A stretch of DNA of 54,699 nt from a virus. Of the stretch, positions 24,647 through 32,621 are shown in pieces. The notes under the pieces were generated by a model, which searched no databases, was not told the DNA's origin, and saw nothing but the letters and a program-made list of their open reading frames with translations. Location: positions 1-54,699 of IMG/VR virus record IMGVR_UViG_3300009124_000016; one strand, written 5' to 3'. The position numbers and the translations under genes were made by a program. Within the stretch, counting starts at the first letter, position 1. Each line of letters starts with the position of its first letter.

Positions 24647-26051
24647 TGACGTTTGAAGCACTTTCTTCGGTGCCGTATGTATCTCTAATTAGAGTTAGGA
24701 ATGATACGCCGACTTCATTTTTTGATTCTACGACATGATTAATTTTTGAGATCAGATATGTTCCACTATGCTCAGTATCGTATGGATCTGCAGTTCTATT
24801 GGCAGATGGGATTTGGTTAGGAATATAGATGTTAATTTTGTCTCCCACTCCCAATTGGAAGTTGCCAGTGATTTTAATTTCTACTTGCTGGTTTGCAACT
24901 GTATGTGATCTTGCAATACTTTGCATCAGATAGTGCTTTTGGAAGTCAGGATAATCTGGATTAGATGATCCACCATCTTCTTCATCAGGAGATCCAATAG
25001 TTGCCTCACTGTTCCAGGTTTCGTGATCTGTCAACACACTCATCACTCTAGTTGGGTATTTTGACAGTTCTTTTTGTCCAATAGGAAGTCCTGCCTGACT
25101 GCCAAGATGCGTCAGACTATCATAACTATCTGCTAATGAATAGACATGCTCATCATACTTCCCCGTGCTAAAATCATATGTACACAAAACAGATGAGAAT
25201 GCTCCCATTCTTAGTTTAGATAAAATGTCAATTTCATTATTAAATGTGATATCAACAATCTTTTGGTTTGCTGAATGCTGTCCTTCGTTTGGTTCTAGGT
25301 AGTAACTAGGGTATTCTTTTTCCCCCTCACTTTTGAATAGTGTCTCTAAAGATTTGAAATGATATCCAGTTCTAGTTTCATAGAAAAGATACCCAGCAGT
25401 TCCGCCTGCTTTCTTATAATCAGTATTTTCAACACCACCTAAATCTGATGATGCTGTAGTCAGAACACCTGTTTCATTTTTGAACTTTGGAAGCTTTGCA
25501 GATGTAACAGTCTTTGGTTCTGATGCACCATAAACAGATCTTGTTTTTACATAATCAATAACACTGAATGGTGATCTCTTTGGGATATGAAATTTTGTTT
25601 TGAATAGTGTAGGATCTAGACTTAGTGTCTTCTGGGTGTTCAACTTCTGAAGCATTGCTCCTACAATATTCTCTGGTCTTTCGGCAACTGTAGCAGCAAT
25701 CTTAATACTCTCGTTAATTAGTGCTTCCTCGGAATATAAGACCAAGACGTATGCTTGAAATCTTTGTCCTTGGAACCTATTCATGATACGATTGACACGG
25801 AAAATATATGTAAACTCTCCGTCTCCATTTTCCACTTCAATTTCAATTTTTTCAAATCCTTGGATGGGAAATGAAGATACGATGTTTTCACCGCTATCTG
25901 ATAGCATCAACTTTGCATGAGTAGATGGTTTGTTTATATCTTCAAAATAATCAAATCTTTCGATCAAGTTGATAATATCTTTCGACCTTGTTCCATCTGG
26001 AGATGACAAGATACATGAAATAATTTTAGCGTCGGATGCGTAAGTGGTCAT
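24642..26051 (-). CDS. gp27-like baseplate hub protein
   Basis: A 469-residue structural protein. The N-terminal half (SDAKIISCILSSPDG, SKDIINLIERFDYFEDI, IEIEVENGDGEFTYIFRVNRI) has the look of the gp27/gpD hub tube-domain family: membrane-proximal strands followed by a PFSVIDYVKTR helix near residue 160. The C-terminal part contains VANQQVEIKITGNFQLGVGDKINI-type strands, typical of the tail-tube-like hub ring. It immediately precedes gp5, its partner in the T4 hub (gp27)3-(gp5)3. It is somewhat longer than T4 gp27 (391 residues). Its start overlaps the upstream stop by 1 nt. Confidence 0.6.
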   Translation of the reverse strand: MTTYASDAKIISCILSSPDGTRSKDIINLIERFDYFEDINKPSTHAKLMLSDSGENIVSSFPIQGFEKIEIEVENGDGEFTYIFRVNRIMNRFQGQRFQAYVLVLYSEEALINESIKIAATVAERPENIVGAMLQKLNTQKTLSLDPTLFKTKFHIPKRSPFSVIDYVKTRSVYGASEPKTVTSAKLPKFKNETGVLTTASSDLGGVENTDYKKAGGTAGYLFYETRTGYHFKSLETLFKSEGEKEYPSYYLEPNEGQHSANQKIVDITFNNEIDILSKLRMGAFSSVLCTYDFSTGKYDEHVYSLADSYDSLTHLGSQAGLPIGQKELSKYPTRVMSVLTDHETWNSEATIGSPDEEDGGSSNPDYPDFQKHYLMQSIARSHTVANQQVEIKITGNFQLGVGDKINIYIPNQIPSANRTADPYDTEHSGTYLISKINHVVESKNEVGVSFLTLIRDTYGTEESASNVK

Positions 26052-28525
26052 TAGGTTGGAATTCCATCTCTAGGATATAGACTATTGATATTACTATCTT
26101 CGTGTCCTCTATTTGGTAGTGCTTGTTCACCAGATTGCTTAGAAGATGATCTATTGTTTTGTTGTGTATCACCTATATTTAACATCGCAATAGAAGGTTC
26201 TGCTGATTGACCAGATCTAGGTCTTTGATATGAAACTTCTTGATCTCTTCTTTGCTCAGGTGGTTCTATCGATGGTTCAGATTTAACACGGAACTCTGGT
26301 GCAAGTCTAAATCCACTATAACCATCTTCTCGTGATGATGAGATAATTTGATTTGCTTCACGAAGACTAATAGGTTCTGCATCAGCAGCACCCAGTTCAT
26401 TGGTTTTGTAAATCTCTTGTCCCATTCTAACAATAGTGTTAGGATCATTGTGTTCAATATCATATTCAGGAATACTATCTAATGTGAGATCTCCACCAGC
26501 AGGAGGTGGTGATGTAGAAGCTGCTTGATATGCTTGTAAATTTTGTTGATATCTTTGAGCAGCACCTGTTGTATGAGTATTAGGTTGACTGCCGCCTGGG
26601 AGTGATGGCCATCCAAGATCTTTGGATAGTTTGGGGAACACCTCACTCTCAAGATTTCCAGATTTAAGTGCCTGAAGCATTCCTGCTTCACCATCACCAC
26701 CACCACCTGCTGTCCATACTTGTGTCATGAAGTTTCTCATAATCTTAGTCTGGTTTTCCATTGAGAACTTATCTTTCGATGGATCTAAACCAGCATCAAT
26801 TGCTCTTTGACGTAGGTAACTAGAGTGCATCTGGAATGCACCCAAAGCACCAGTTTCAGACTTTCCTTCATTGATCAATCGATTAGCAACTACAAGTGCC
26901 TCATCGATGGTCATATCTTCTAGACCAGCATATGATCCATGACCTTGAATAGAATCTACTACACCCTCACCGCCAGAAATTGTTGACATCAATGCTTTGA
27001 TCTCTGCTGGTGCATCTCCAGGTAGTAATGTTCCTGGTCCTCTACGACCATTATTGATGCGGTTTGTCAGACCTTCTAAAAGTCCACCAAACCCCTCAAA
27101 CATCTTTTCAAATAAGTTCTTATTGTCTCCTCCGTCTTCACCACCTTCGGGAGTAGATTTCTTATTTGAAGATGATACACCACCAACTGCTTTTTGAATA
27201 AATCCTGGTGGCAGTCCAAATATAGATGCGATAGGTCTCATCAACGAAAGAGTATCACTTCTAATTCCATCTTGTTCACTACCAAATGATTTCAAATATT
27301 CAGAAGTTGTTGAAAGTAATGATGCACCAGTTGCAAGGAATGGCATCTCCATTGCCTCCACCAATGCCTCGTTCATATATTGGTTCTTATTTCCACCTAG
27401 ATTTACCTGAGTTTGTTGTGGTGATGTAACCTTGGTAGTATTCAGGGTCAGATTAGTGACAGGAGTAACTCCTGGGGTCCTAGTACCCGCTTCAAATGAT
27501 TGATATGGACTTTTCCTTACCTTTCCATCAACAGCACTTGGAAGACCTCTGGTGTAGTTATTATCGATAGGAACAACCATCTCATTACCATGTAAGGTAA
27601 CGTCATAACCGCTATTTGGACCAGAAAAAATAGCACCTTGCTCTGCCTGTGGTAAAGGTTCTTGAGATACTTGTTTATCTGGAGTTGTATCTACATTTCT
27701 TGGATCTTCTTTCTGTTCGTTTTCTTCGGTAGTAAGATCATCAAATGTTTCTACATCATCCGATCCCACTCGAACACTTTCTAATTTATTCTCTGCAGAT
27801 TTATCTTCTGCTTTGTCAATAGTTTGTTTAGTAAACTGCGTCTGGTTTTGGATTGCCGCAGCAATATCATCCAGTTTACTTTCTAGTGTAGAAGTTCTAT
27901 GCTTTAGTTGCTCTGCTAGTTCTGTTTGTGTAGAGGCAACCTTGCCGATGCTATCAGCAGATCTCTGTGAACTATCACTAATCGACTGTGTAATCCTTTC
28001 CAAAGAAAGGACTAGTTCTCTAAGATGCTGGAATAGTTCTTCCTTCGATACTTTACCAGAACCTCTAGTTGCTTTGGTTACTTTTTGAGCAGAACCTTCC
28101 GCTACAGGAGTAGTTGGTGTTGCTTCAGATGGTTTTTGTGATGGATCATCAATTACAGCAGTATAATCAAATTGTGCTCTAAATCTTTGTAGAGAACTTG
28201 TTTTCTTTTGTTTCTTAAATACTTTCCAAAAATTTTCTCTGGGATTTTTTAGAAGTTTTCCTCTTTCTACGAGATTGTTTAGATCTTCCTTCTTGCTGGC
28301 GATTGCATCTCCGCCAAACTGGTGTCCTAATGCTTTCTTGAAAAAATAACCTTTCTCTACACCTGCCTCATCTAGTGAGGTATCATTCTTTTCTGCAATT
28401 TTTTCAGCATATTGTCTCTCATTCTCTGCCATTTCTCTGGCAGCAAGAATTCTACGAATAGCAGATCCAATAGGATTAGCGCCATCGCCGCCAGTATATT
28501 GAAATCCTTGTGTTCCGCGACCCAT
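26051..28525 (-). CDS. Virion protein with lysozyme-like (GH104-type) domain
   Basis: An 824-residue structural protein. Residues 1-300 are charged and helical, with a coiled-coil-like stretch near 180-250. Residues about 511-645 resemble lambda-endolysin-like transglycosylases: ISGGEG near the catalytic Glu position, TIDEALVVANRLI, GALGAFQMHSSYLRQRAID and FSMENQTKIM, which follow the order seen in GH104 lytic enzymes. The rest, about 650-824, is Pro/Ser/Gln-rich. It is probably a tail-associated muralytic protein that helps cross the host wall, standing in for the lysozyme missing from gp5. Assigning the catalytic residue needs a structure-based alignment. Confidence 0.65.
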   Translation of the reverse strand: MGRGTQGFQYTGGDGANPIGSAIRRILAAREMAENERQYAEKIAEKNDTSLDEAGVEKGYFFKKALGHQFGGDAIASKKEDLNNLVERGKLLKNPRENFWKVFKKQKKTSSLQRFRAQFDYTAVIDDPSQKPSEATPTTPVAEGSAQKVTKATRGSGKVSKEELFQHLRELVLSLERITQSISDSSQRSADSIGKVASTQTELAEQLKHRTSTLESKLDDIAAAIQNQTQFTKQTIDKAEDKSAENKLESVRVGSDDVETFDDLTTEENEQKEDPRNVDTTPDKQVSQEPLPQAEQGAIFSGPNSGYDVTLHGNEMVVPIDNNYTRGLPSAVDGKVRKSPYQSFEAGTRTPGVTPVTNLTLNTTKVTSPQQTQVNLGGNKNQYMNEALVEAMEMPFLATGASLLSTTSEYLKSFGSEQDGIRSDTLSLMRPIASIFGLPPGFIQKAVGGVSSSNKKSTPEGGEDGGDNKNLFEKMFEGFGGLLEGLTNRINNGRRGPGTLLPGDAPAEIKALMSTISGGEGVVDSIQGHGSYAGLEDMTIDEALVVANRLINEGKSETGALGAFQMHSSYLRQRAIDAGLDPSKDKFSMENQTKIMRNFMTQVWTAGGGGDGEAGMLQALKSGNLESEVFPKLSKDLGWPSLPGGSQPNTHTTGAAQRYQQNLQAYQAASTSPPPAGGDLTLDSIPEYDIEHNDPNTIVRMGQEIYKTNELGAADAEPISLREANQIISSSREDGYSGFRLAPEFRVKSEPSIEPPEQRRDQEVSYQRPRSGQSAEPSIAMLNIGDTQQNNRSSSKQSGEQALPNRGHEDSNINSLYPRDGIPT

Positions 28526-28543: not shown

Positions 28544-28551
28544 TATTTATG
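28544..28551 (-). promoter_or_regulatory. Late promoter (CATAAATA)
   Basis: CATAAATA on the minus strand, 19 nt before the 824-residue gene's start. It overlaps the end of the preceding gene. Confidence 0.7.
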
Positions 28552-31500
28552 TTAGTGATAAACGTTGCATTTCAATGTTTGCTTTAGGTTCGCCTACACT
28601 GAAAACAGGTTGTGCAAAATTTACAGGAACTGCTGCTGCTACCATATTATTTAAGAGAATTATCTGCTGAGATTGTTGTTCTCCTTCATCAACATCAAAA
28701 GAAACTAGATCTGCGTTAGCAACCTGCTGTTCTCTCTGTTGTGGTGGTTGTAGATTTGACATTAACTTAACTTCACCACTGCTTGGTAGAGTATATTTTT
28801 TGTTTTGTTCTAAACCAAATCCTGATGGATGATTTTTTCTAATAGCATTGTAAGTTGCTTCACTAATCTCAGTTGCATTTCCATCTTTTCTCTGGAAATA
28901 CTTTCCATTCAAGTAATAATATTCATTTGCACCAACCTTTCCAAATCCCATTGGAGTTCCACTCTGTCCGTTTGGTTGATTGACTAGTTCTTCATGTTTA
29001 GATTTTGCATCTGCATCACTCAAAGGTGCAGGAACTCTATTCTTTGCTTCTGATAGGAACCTAGTGGGATTGACTAGTTTTCCATCTGCATATGCTTCAA
29101 AGTGTAAGTGTGTTTGCTCTGTAGTACCATCAAAGTATCTAAAGAGGTTTCCGATATGCTGACCGCCATACACTTCATCTCCTGCTTTTAGACCTGCTCT
29201 TGGAATAACGTGCAAATATTTGGTTTCAGTTCCATCACCATGATCGATGTGTACAACACCACCAGGACCTCCACCACTATTAGATGCTTCGGTAACTCTT
29301 CCAGTCTTATATGCAACAATTGGTGCTCTAGTGTCTGCTAGTGAATTTTCAGTAACATCAATACCTAGGTGCTTCCTTCCACCACGAGCAGTAGTATTTC
29401 CATATTCTTGTCCAGGTTGTTGTCCTGCCACTGCACTAGAACTTGCCAGTGGCATAAAAGTGTCACCATCGATCTCGCCTGTGTAATAATCAACTACCGA
29501 TAGAGGAGATTGTGTACCACCTGTATTGATAATTTTACTAAGTACTTCTAACTTATCTTTGAAAAACTCTGCTAGTCTTTTACCAAAGTTAGATTTGCTG
29601 TTTAAAATACTCTTCTGACTAGATGATAATCCTGCTTCTGATCCATCATCTTTAATTGACTTTACCTTTTGTTCTACATTTGGGAAAGATCCACCTACGT
29701 TTGTACCAACCATAGTAGGAGATACACCAAATACATCTGCAAGTCTAGAAAGATCAGATCTTAGTTCTCTTGAGACATTGGATCCAGCAGGACCTAATCC
29801 ATTGATGAACGAACTAGTCGATACAATCAAAGAAGAACCAATATCACTGAATGGTGAATCCACCATCTTATCATATTCTTTCTTAGTTCCTACCCATTCA
29901 GCACCGTGTAGTTCTGCTTTTCCTGCTGCAGCATCTCTAGTTCCATACTCATACTGTAACTCTTCTCCAACGATTTCGTTGAAGAATGCTTGCATTGGTT
30001 TACCGTCACCTTGGATCACTGCTCCTAGGTTTGGTTCAATATGCTTTGTGTATGCATCAATATCAATATCCCTGAAAATATCAATGACGCTAAATCCTGC
30101 GCCAATAAAAGGAATTGCACCACCAAGAGATAATGCAGCACCTTTAGGATCTCCCAGAGCAGCTCTAGTAATACCCTCTACAAGACCATATCCAACGTTT
30201 ACTGCTTGTCCAATACCACTAGGAACAGCGTTACCACCAACTTTTACTATACCCTTTCCAATAACTTTTTCTAGTAATTCTTGACCACCTCTCGTGATAA
30301 TTGCTTTTTGAACCCTAGGGTGTGTTAGAGCAGCCTGGAAGATCTTCAATCCACTCTTTGGTTTTACAACATGATCTAGGACAGCAGGAGCAAGAGGTCC
30401 CATGGTGGCAGTCACCAACGATCTTGCCATGGGATTTTTTATTAGGAAATTCCCAGCATCATCCAAGTTGCCAGTAATTGCTCTTGTTACTCCAGGGAGA
30501 GCAATATGTTCAAATCCCGCTGCATATGCTCTAGGGTTCGTAGCAGCACTTGCAGCAGCACTCTGTGCCACTCTAGGTAGTGCTCTTCTAACAATAGATG
30601 TTGCCGCTCTATTTGCAATTGCTCTGGGTGCAACTCTGCTAAGCAGACGCTTTCCTGCCATCCTAGCGAAACGAGCTTTTGCTCTTAATGCTCTAGGAAT
30701 TAGTCGTCTGAGGAGGGGTCTAAGAAGTCGTCTTCCCAAAAATTTGCCCAGTCTTCGTAGAAGTCCCATGGGAATTCCAAGTCCGCCACCTCCACCAGAA
30801 AGATCGTCAAAACCACTAGTTCCCGAACCGTCCCTTCTGTCATCTAACTTATTTTTAGCAGCTTCATCTTCCATCGCATCTAATTGATCCTTCGCTGCCT
30901 GTTGTTGTGCATCAAGGGCAGCGAGGATTGCGTCAAACTTTGCTTCTAACGCTTCATCTTGGTTGGCAATACCCTGATAGGTTGCCATTGTAATTCCAAG
31001 AGATGTCCTAAGTAATTCGTTTTGTTCTTGCAGTCTCTTATCAATGGTTGATAGTTGACTTTGGATTCTGCCAACATTTGAATTTAGGAACGTTAAAATA
31101 CGTTTATTTGAAAAACTTTCTTTCTTTTGCTTCTCTGGTAGTGGTAAATTTGCGTCTGTTCTTCTATTTACCGTTTTAATTAAACTTTCACGCACTCCCT
31201 CAGGCAAATCATCGAACATGTCTGCCGAGATTGCTTTTTGGTTTTCTTGCTGTACATCTTCTAAAACTTCTGTTGCTGCTTGCACCTGTGCTTTGACTTC
31301 TTTCTCATCAGGTGCTGTTTCTTCTACTGCTACAGGAGTAGTTTTCTTTTTCAGAACTTTGTCTCTCAATTCACGAAGACGTGCTTCATCTTCTGCTTCT
31401 TGAATTTTTCTATTGGTTTGTTCACGAAATGGTTTTTCTAGATATTCATCAACCAACCACTTTTGATATGCTTCTAGGTTTTCATATCCCGCTTGAGCAC

Positions 31501-31720
31501 CAGTTTGGTTTAGTTGTGGATATCCACGAGGTTCTTTCTTTAGGTTGCTGATAAGAGTATCAGCATCTGCTTCACTTAGACGAACAAAAGATGAATATGT
31601 AGTACCATCCAGAGGAGACTGACCACCAATTAGTTTCCACTTCAATCTTGTCCAGGTGTTGTCACCAATCTTACCCTTATACCATGGTTGTTGTGGATCT
31701 AAAAATTGTTCTGGATTCAT
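28547..31720 (-). CDS. Large virion protein with M23 peptidase domain (possible tape measure/hub)
   Basis: A 1057-residue protein. Residues about 60-290 are charged and largely helical with a coiled-coil-like QSQLSTIDKRLQEQNELLR segment. Residues about 313-395 are very arginine-rich and amphipathic (LLRRLGKFLGRRLLRPLLRR and on). A hydrophobic glycine/alanine stretch lies near 525-545 (GAALSLGGAIPFIGAGFSV). Residues about 780-885 hold an M23 peptidase domain (HLGIDV, GGVVHIDHGDGTETKYLHV, HLHFEAYADGK), with the zinc-binding H-x3-D and H-x-H motifs intact. M23 enzymes cut peptide crosslinks of peptidoglycan. It follows gp26 and its frameshift extension, the usual place of the tape-measure gene. 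Confidence 0.75.
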   Translation of the reverse strand: MNPEQFLDPQQPWYKGKIGDNTWTRLKWKLIGGQSPLDGTTYSSFVRLSEADADTLISNLKKEPRGYPQLNQTGAQAGYENLEAYQKWLVDEYLEKPFREQTNRKIQEAEDEARLRELRDKVLKKKTTPVAVEETAPDEKEVKAQVQAATEVLEDVQQENQKAISADMFDDLPEGVRESLIKTVNRRTDANLPLPEKQKKESFSNKRILTFLNSNVGRIQSQLSTIDKRLQEQNELLRTSLGITMATYQGIANQDEALEAKFDAILAALDAQQQAAKDQLDAMEDEAAKNKLDDRRDGSGTSGFDDLSGGGGGLGIPMGLLRRLGKFLGRRLLRPLLRRLIPRALRAKARFARMAGKRLLSRVAPRAIANRAATSIVRRALPRVAQSAAASAATNPRAYAAGFEHIALPGVTRAITGNLDDAGNFLIKNPMARSLVTATMGPLAPAVLDHVVKPKSGLKIFQAALTHPRVQKAIITRGGQELLEKVIGKGIVKVGGNAVPSGIGQAVNVGYGLVEGITRAALGDPKGAALSLGGAIPFIGAGFSVIDIFRDIDIDAYTKHIEPNLGAVIQGDGKPMQAFFNEIVGEELQYEYGTRDAAAGKAELHGAEWVGTKKEYDKMVDSPFSDIGSSLIVSTSSFINGLGPAGSNVSRELRSDLSRLADVFGVSPTMVGTNVGGSFPNVEQKVKSIKDDGSEAGLSSSQKSILNSKSNFGKRLAEFFKDKLEVLSKIINTGGTQSPLSVVDYYTGEIDGDTFMPLASSSAVAGQQPGQEYGNTTARGGRKHLGIDVTENSLADTRAPIVAYKTGRVTEASNSGGGPGGVVHIDHGDGTETKYLHVIPRAGLKAGDEVYGGQHIGNLFRYFDGTTEQTHLHFEAYADGKLVNPTRFLSEAKNRVPAPLSDADAKSKHEELVNQPNGQSGTPMGFGKVGANEYYYLNGKYFQRKDGNATEISEATYNAIRKNHPSGFGLEQNKKYTLPSSGEVKLMSNLQPPQQREQQVANADLVSFDVDEGEQQSQQIILLNNMVAAAVPVNFAQPVFSVGEPKANIEMQRLSLT

Positions 31721-31913
31721 CGCCTACTAGCTGCTTTTGCTGCTTCCTGTTTTTGTTTTTCCTCTTCAATATACTGTAATAGTAACGACGTGTAAACTTC
31801 ACGTTCCCACGGCATGAGGTTTTCTACCTCAGTCAAAGAGTATTTATGGTACTGCATCAAAGCAAAGTTAGTTTTATAGTACCCCTCCAAACTATTTTGG
31901 AAGAGTGCTATCC
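31717..31913 (-). CDS. Frameshift extension of gp26 (65 residues, gp51-like position)
   Basis: An open -1 frame that directly continues gp26 after the slippery site at 31914-31920 and adds RIALFQNSLEGYYKTNFALM... to the end at 31717-31719. It contains HKYSLTEVENLMPWEREVY, the Pro-Trp-Glu pattern of tail-assembly-chaperone second halves. A fused product would have 236 + 65 = 301 residues. Internal initiation at the ATG 31854-31856 is an alternative, but it has no good ribosome site. The stop overlaps the start of the 1057-residue gene. Coding sense is clear from the motif; the frameshift itself is predicted. Confidence 0.75.
31841..31848 (-). promoter_or_regulatory. Possible late promoter (CATAAATA)
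   Basis: CATAAATA on the minus strand inside the gp26 extension, about 120 nt before the 1057-residue gene. It fits the consensus but lies in coding sequence (HKY codons), so it may be chance. Confidence 0.35.
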
Positions 31914-31920
31914 GAAAAAA
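31882..31920 (-). promoter_or_regulatory. Programmed -1 ribosomal frameshift signal
   Basis: Minus strand: slippery heptamer T-TTT-TTC at 31914-31920 in the gp26 zero frame. An 8-nt spacer containing the gp26 TAG stop follows, then a hairpin with arms CTCTTCCAAA (31896-31905) and TTTGGAGGGG (31882-31891) around loop ATAG. The stem is 10 bp including three G-U pairs. Confidence 0.75.
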
Positions 31921-32621
31921 TTCTGTAGACCCTCAATTGTGTATTTATTGGGGACGCCTGTATTGGGGTTCACAACCTCAAATGTGTGAGACAGTTTGGG
32001 CATAGTCTCATAGAACTTTTGGATTGCCTCGAACTGCTTAACAGTCAGACCTTCAATCCATTCACGCATCTCCTTCTTAGTTGATGTAGAAGAATCATAA
32101 ACTTCTTCACCATAGAAGATCTGGTCAATATGGTCTGCAATGAAATTGAAGACCTCTTCTGTTTTGATATCCTTGTTCAGGAATTCTGCTTCAATAAATC
32201 TATCCATTGAAGGATACTTCATCAGAATACCAGTGTCATCTGTGAGCATAATCTTGTTCGTATGCTCAGGATCTTTGATGACCTCAACTTCATTGATGTC
32301 AATCTTAGCATCAACTCTAGTCTTTTCATCATCACGGCAAAGGATTTTCATCGTAATGATCTCTCCAACCGCTGCTGCTCTGATCCTGAGGAATAGATAC
32401 TCAAGATCAAATGTTGGCAGTTCATTTACTTTGATCCTGCTTATGACACAACTCTTGATAAGATCTTTTACAGCAGAAGCAATCTGTGCTTCGTCTTCCG
32501 ATTCTAATGCTAGTAATAGAACTTTCTCTTCTTTTACAAGAAATGGTCTATATTTTACAGTCTTTCCAGTAGAAGGTAGTTCCAACTCGTAAGTAGGAAT
32601 ACCGATTTTAGGTAATGCCAT
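31908..32621 (-). CDS. 26: gp26-like baseplate hub protein / tail assembly chaperone first half
   Basis: A 237-residue protein. The plan (LPSTGKTVKYRPFLVKEEKVLL near the N-terminus, KSCVIS...LPTFDLEYLFLRIRAAAVGE, then MREWIEGLTVKQFEAIQKFYETMPKL) matches the T4-like gp26 baseplate family. T4 gp26 is 208 residues and is needed for hub assembly. The last zero-frame codons run into a slippery sequence, so a minor fraction of product may be extended by 65 residues. The late promoter at 32647-32654 precedes it. Position before the large M23 protein mirrors chaperone-then-tape-measure order in other tailed phages. Confidence 0.75.
   Translation of the reverse strand: MALPKIGIPTYELELPSTGKTVKYRPFLVKEEKVLLLALESEDEAQIASAVKDLIKSCVISRIKVNELPTFDLEYLFLRIRAAAVGEIITMKILCRDDEKTRVDAKIDINEVEVIKDPEHTNKIMLTDDTGILMKYPSMDRFIEAEFLNKDIKTEEVFNFIADHIDQIFYGEEVYDSSTSTKKEMREWIEGLTVKQFEAIQKFYETMPKLSHTFEVVNPNTGVPNKYTIEGLQNFFG

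Follow-up and report, generated by a model that had tools for sequence, protein, structure and literature searches.

A single gene of a T4-like phage of the cyanophage type very probably encodes two tail assembly chaperones: a short gp26 and a long gp26-51, the latter made when ribosomes slip back by one base at the end of gene 26. The phage is represented by an IMG/VR virus record of 54,699 bases (hereafter the window). The chaperone locus lies wholly on the minus strand, which the original prediction, otherwise accurate except for one base pair and one nucleotide of spacing in the hairpin, had left unstated.

Results

A predicted -1 frameshift joins gp26 to a 65-residue extension

Annotation of the locus and its downstream neighbors identified the following features:

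31908..32621, minus strand: gp26 / TAC-N, short chaperone form, 237 aa, zero frame (PF12322 T4_baseplate, E 1.6e-68; phrog_150 baseplate hub, E 5e-76)
31914..31920, minus strand: slippery heptamer T TTT TTC, which a single sense codon (GGA) separates from the zero-frame stop (from the sequence; T TTT TT[C/T] in 108/108 non-redundant relatives)
31881..31906, minus strand: candidate stimulatory hairpin with an 11-bp stem and AUAG loop, 7 nt after the heptamer (folding and comparison of relatives)
31717..31914, minus strand: -1 frame extension, TAC-C domain, "gp51", 65 aa plus stop (phrog_634 baseplate hub assembly catalyst, E 1e-27; C-terminus of phrog_150)
31717..32621, minus strand: predicted fusion gp26-51 / TAC-NC, 301 aa, via a -1 shift (domain order as in T4 gp51, one open frame)
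28547..31720, minus strand: 1057-aa protein, probable tape measure protein (adjoins the chaperone; M23 peptidase domain at residues 783-885, PF01551, E 4e-16)
26051..28525, minus strand: 824-aa protein, possible second tape-measure-like protein (stretches shared with the 1057-aa protein)

Read on the minus strand, the zero frame of gp26 ends CAG AAT TTT TTC GGA TAG, in agreement with the prediction. A -1 shift after TTC leads into CGG ATA GCA..., a frame of 65 codons that closes with the TGA at 31719..31717; the predicted junction between a T TTT TTC slip site and a 65-codon open frame is therefore borne out by the sequence. The shifted reading continues as RIALFQNSLEGYYKTNFALMQYHKYSLTEVENLMPWE... 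and the extension carries HKYSLTEVENLMPWE. Its stop overlaps the ATG of the next gene (ATGA). Both halves of the putative fusion match the families of T4-like tail assembly chaperones, PF12322 for the gp26 domain and phrog_634 for the gp51 extension, and gp26 is the only PF12322 copy in the record. Overall, the sequence and the comparative evidence point to short and long isoforms made from one gene by a -1 shift at the heptamer.

The slip site and its register are conserved across relatives

TTTTTTC by itself is not rare, with 11 occurrences on the minus strand of the window. What lifts the heptamer at the end of gp26 beyond chance is its recurrence in relatives, together with the same register and a conserved extension. 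Aligning this junction in relatives, the check proposed with the original prediction, upheld both heptamer and frame. In a first set of relatives, gp26 ends in NNT TTT TTC and a nearby stop in 82/82 cases, and the extension lies in the -1 register in each of the 81 cases that could be scored. Wider scans extended the comparison to relatives of Pelagibacter, Sinorhizobium and Vibrio phages, and dropping sequences more than 90% identical left 108 non-redundant loci of this type. All 108 carry the heptamer in the -1 register (T TTT TTC in 100, T TTT TTT in 8), and 106 have a PWE, PFE, PYE or PLE motif in the extension. The named isolates that have the slip site in this register are S-PM2, S-CAM1, Syn9, S-CREM1, S-CREM2, S-N03, S-CRM01 and MS29, as well as HTVC008M, phiN3, Mendera, AS-szw, VH1_2019, pf16 and Astolliot.

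The codon preceding TTT varies among AGT, TCT, AAT, GAT, GCT, CAT and ACT in these loci, encoding Ser, Asn, Asp, Ala, His or Thr, and always ends in T. Within the bodies of these genes, T-final codons make up only 31-79% of the codons for the same amino acids. Similarly, of 97 Phe-Phe pairs elsewhere in gp26 genes, 54 are encoded TTC TTT and only 4 TTT TTC. Since the residue varies while the T is constant, and since Phe-Phe is otherwise mostly TTC TTT, the protein sequence does not fix the bases of the slip site. Naive codon-use probabilities are about 1e-22 for the 5' T alone and about 1e-16 for TTT in first place; the sequences are related, so these values are indicative rather than true p-values.

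In S-SCSM1 the T TTT TTC is intact, and 11 nt that are extra relative to its relatives follow directly and close the -1 frame before gp51 (L202:7275-7306); either an error in the sequence or a genuine exception could account for this. A recognizable -1 extension with a PWH motif occurs without the canonical heptamer in four phages that are more distant, the Vibrio phages 1.255.O, K483 and K474 and the Aeromonas phage TSW001 (loci L088, L198, L199 and L200). Their gp26 ends in CTT TT[C/T], with TAATG at the stop in three of them.

RNA structure is predicted just downstream of the slip site

The candidate hairpin pairs 31906..31896 with 31891..31881, including two G.U pairs among its 11 bp, and four further outer pairs are possible, in which case the hairpin would span 31911-31876. 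Its minimum free energy is -16.7 kcal/mol (z -5.6), and none of 200 shuffled sequences was as stable. A hairpin with a 4-nt loop had been predicted here and is present, with a stem of 11 rather than 10 bp and a spacing of 7 rather than 8 nt.

To place this hairpin in a wider context, we folded segments of 45 nt, placed at 18 offsets, from the 108 loci. Predicted structure is maximal at the offset of the window's hairpin, where the segment that begins 1 nt past the heptamer has a mean z of -1.9 compared with about -0.3 elsewhere, with shoulders at offsets -10 and +8. Among 11 close relatives, 91.5% of cells in the window's stem are paired, against about 50% for slid versions of the stem, and one stem pair shows compensatory change, being altered on both sides in three sequences. 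Across all relatives, we rejected a single conserved stem: stems occupy several clade-specific pairing registers, and some relatives, L016, L017, L037 and L047 for example, show little structure. Stems in several clade-specific registers argue for a maintained function more than for one inherited hairpin. With heptamer, register and downstream RNA structure all conserved, -1 programmed frameshifting at the end of gp26 is strongly supported as a prediction from sequence.

T4 gp26 and gp51 are paralogues that differ by the extension

Both T4 gp26 (208 aa) and T4 gp51 (249 aa) match PF12322 (E 8.8e-64 and 3.9e-52, respectively), and only gp51 continues into phrog_634. A profile built from the frameshift extensions matches T4 gp51 residues 207-245 with an E of 9e-5 (nominal 10,000 sequences). 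T4 gp26 ends ...GLKEFFELL without an extension, and its Phe-Phe is encoded TTC TTT. The two T4 proteins are thus paralogues with the extension on gp51 only, and by sequence T4 appears to encode as two paralogous genes the short and long chaperones that cyanophages would make by frameshifting. This draws a clean evolutionary contrast: most of the T4-like groups sampled would use a single gene with a frameshift, and T4 uses a pair of paralogues.

These relationships support the proposal that gp26 and its extension are the T4-lineage chaperone: the extension matches phrog_634, and T4 gp51 is a gp26 paralogue that carries it. A review of the T4 tail lists gp26 and gp51 as hub assembly chaperones, with gp51 required and absent from the final particle, as expected for tail assembly chaperones (PMC3004832). 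In S-SCSM1, ORFs 213 and 214 are flagged as virion proteins and ORFs 211/212 are not; the part of the S-CREM2 virion table that was covered lists ORFs 208/209, the large downstream proteins, and does not list ORFs 206/207 (gp26/gp51).

We modeled gp26 with AlphaFold2 (pLDDT 86, pTM 0.79). In a Foldseek comparison the most probable PDB match of this model was the HK97 tail assembly chaperone 2ob9 (probabilities 0.92 and 0.80 for two chains), a weak match of short coverage whose E value is not significant (0.53 for the best chain, range 0.5-0.8; TM 0.43 by target). The modeled fold agrees with the chaperone reading without proving it. A profile search of gp26 against PDB sequences gave nothing meaningful, and a model of the long form (gp51) had no convincing match in the PDB.

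Alternatives to ribosomal slippage

Most cyanophage records annotate gp51 as a separate small gene, which would be translated by re-initiation after the gp26 stop. S-PM2, S-N03, S-CRM01 and others give it as its own CDS, and the stop reads TAATG or TGATG in several distant phages. The window's extension, however, has no ATG until codon 20, and among 114 loci (a set that includes six T4-type in-frame genes) 50 have no ATG in the first 16 codons and 27 have no ATG, GTG or TTG there. Re-initiation also leaves the invariant heptamer, the T before TTT and the fixed -1 register unexplained, and conservation of the extension reaches up to the Phe-Phe of the slip site. We consider this reading very unlikely as the main explanation and reject it in that role; in relatives with an ATG in the extension near the stop, re-initiation could contribute.

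The slip site is a run of six T, on which RNA polymerase might slip to give a mixed mRNA pool fusing the two frames. Six T are short for polymerase slippage, the site closes with TTC in 100/108 loci, which indicates no selection for a longer run, and the stem lies where a ribosomal stimulator is expected; we judge transcriptional slippage highly improbable and likewise reject it as the main explanation. The remaining alternative, two plain genes or a decayed fusion in which the heptamer reflects no more than the coding of a conserved Phe-Phe at the end, draws on the conservation of that end in the protein, seen also in the GLKEFF of T4 gp26. It meets three objections: the extension-free T4 gp26 encodes these residues as TTC TTT rather than TTT TTC, TTT TTC is uncommon for Phe-Phe elsewhere in these gp26 genes, and the 5' T is constant across different codons. 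This reading, rejected on the same terms, is extremely improbable.

Annotation of gp51 in public records

In all, 542 phage records encode a recognizable extension. Its treatment in them varies: beside the records that give gp51 its own CDS, that of S-CAM1 omits the extension. In the Aeromonas phage AS-szw (Ceceduovirus), which we take to lie near Aeh1, the gp51 extension sits in the -1 frame and is unannotated (L087:4702-4870).

Sullivan et al. (2010) described the gp51 of cyanophages and marine vibriophages as lacking its first ~200 residues, the cyanophage "truncated gp51" having ~20% of the length of other gp51 proteins, and gave gp51 as missing only in Aeh1 (PMC3037559). This truncated gp51 is the same open frame as the window's extension, and its short length follows from being the -1 extension of gp26; the word "frameshift" has no hits in the main text of that paper. 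The gp51 of Aeh1 was probably reported missing for the same reason, an unannotated -1 extension. Annotations have long treated the short "gp51" of cyanophages and marine vibriophages as a separate gene that is truncated; it makes most sense as the second half of a chaperone completed by frameshifting, a correction that would reach several hundred genomes.

Large proteins encoded downstream of the chaperone

A frameshifted chaperone points to the long genes downstream as tape measures. In 108 relatives with a complete open reading frame, the long ORF after the chaperone encodes 481-1167 aa and starts mostly 142-230 nt after the heptamer, the remainder at 535-735 nt. The 1057-aa protein of the window, predicted to be the tape measure, is probably that from its position and length; it also has an M23 peptidase domain, a feature of some tape measure proteins. 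Homology to T4 gp29 was not found (no PF25671 match, no phrog_1283 match and no detectable similarity), and the protein may nonetheless have a gp29-like function.

Published tail lengths are 140-170 nm for S-CRM01 (downstream protein of 864 aa), 138 nm for S-N03 (933 aa), 173 nm for S-SCSM1 (950 aa) and 165 nm for S-CREM1 (1016 aa), corresponding to 0.15-0.18 nm of tail per residue. The T4 tail is 92.5 nm long, which gives T4 gp29 a value close to this range. S-CREM2 is an outlier, with a protein of 1565 aa and a tail of 418 nm. These six points, one of them an outlier, are weak evidence that protein length roughly tracks tail length.

A second large protein follows the first in the window and in most named relatives examined and is absent in S-CRM01 (loci listed for paired large proteins, besides the window, are L191, L192, L194, L195, L202 and L204). 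Stretches of similar sequence are common to the two neighboring proteins in the window, S-PM2, Syn9 and S-CREM2; in the window, blastp of the 1057-aa against the 824-aa protein gives E 4e-8 for the best stretch and 2e-6 for the second, and E 4e-4 with low-complexity masking. The S-CREM2 pair measures 1565 and 1456 aa, both proteins are in the virion, and at 0.15 nm per residue the 418-nm tail is not accounted for by either one on its own. One or both of the two large proteins may measure tail length. It is unlikely, though conceivable, that cyanomyovirus tails are built around two tandem, partly paralogous tape-measure-like proteins that are both served by the chaperone; if so, the 418-nm tail of S-CREM2 would have arisen from enlargement of both.

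Discussion

From the observed sequence features, their conservation and the T4 paralogy, we infer slippage, its rate and the binding partners of the products as follows. Most ribosomes would halt at the TAG and release the short form, gp26. Others, aided by the hairpin that lies 7 nt beyond the heptamer, would move back by one base on T TTT TTC and read on for a further 65 residues, giving gp26-51, the long form. If the system works like lambda G and GT, the tape measure protein encoded just downstream would be coated by a large number of short chaperones and a small number of long ones, with the extension recruiting tail-tube subunits. T4 would obtain the same two products from its paralogous genes 26 and 51.

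The abstract of a 2022 study by Vladimirov, Gautam and Davidson reportedly describes the frameshift as conserved in several T4-like groups, with T4 using genes 26 and 51. As cited in two later papers (PMC10885494, PMC12846349), this study (Virology 2022, doi 10.1016/j.virol.2021.11.003) identified the tail assembly chaperones of T4-like phages, so that the novelty originally claimed for a gp26 frameshift does not hold. The PRFect paper adds that in some T4-like phages a pair of genes, one short and the other longer and fused, takes the place of frameshifting (PMC10885494). According to the Adele paper, the TAC-N genes of T4-like phages are known to contain poly-T signals for a -1 shift (PMC12846349), and a 2016 review had named T4 as the exception to a wide conservation of the G-T frameshift (PMC5009743). 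A literature search found no paper that has both a baseplate hub assembly catalyst and a frameshift. The locus is a good instance of an already known system, to which our comparison adds strong support.

Three known systems resemble the locus. The tail assembly chaperone of the Vandenendeviridae and Andersonviridae, described for Pseudomonas phage Adele (PMC12846349), likewise has a poly-T -1 site at the end of TAC-N and a previously unannotated extension; its slip site (GTTTTT) and phage families differ from those of the window. Lambda G and GT share with the window a -1 slip (predicted in the window) near the end of the gene, a long form with a C-terminal domain and a position before a long tape-measure-like gene (PMC5009743), and the one putative fold link between the window's gp26 and a lambda-type chaperone is the modeled match to HK97 2ob9. 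The T4-like TAC-N and TAC-NC proteins, T4 gp26 and gp51, belong to the same families (PF12322 and phrog_634) and stand in the same short and long relation; T4 itself encodes them in two separate genes, whereas the window has one gene and a predicted -1 shift.
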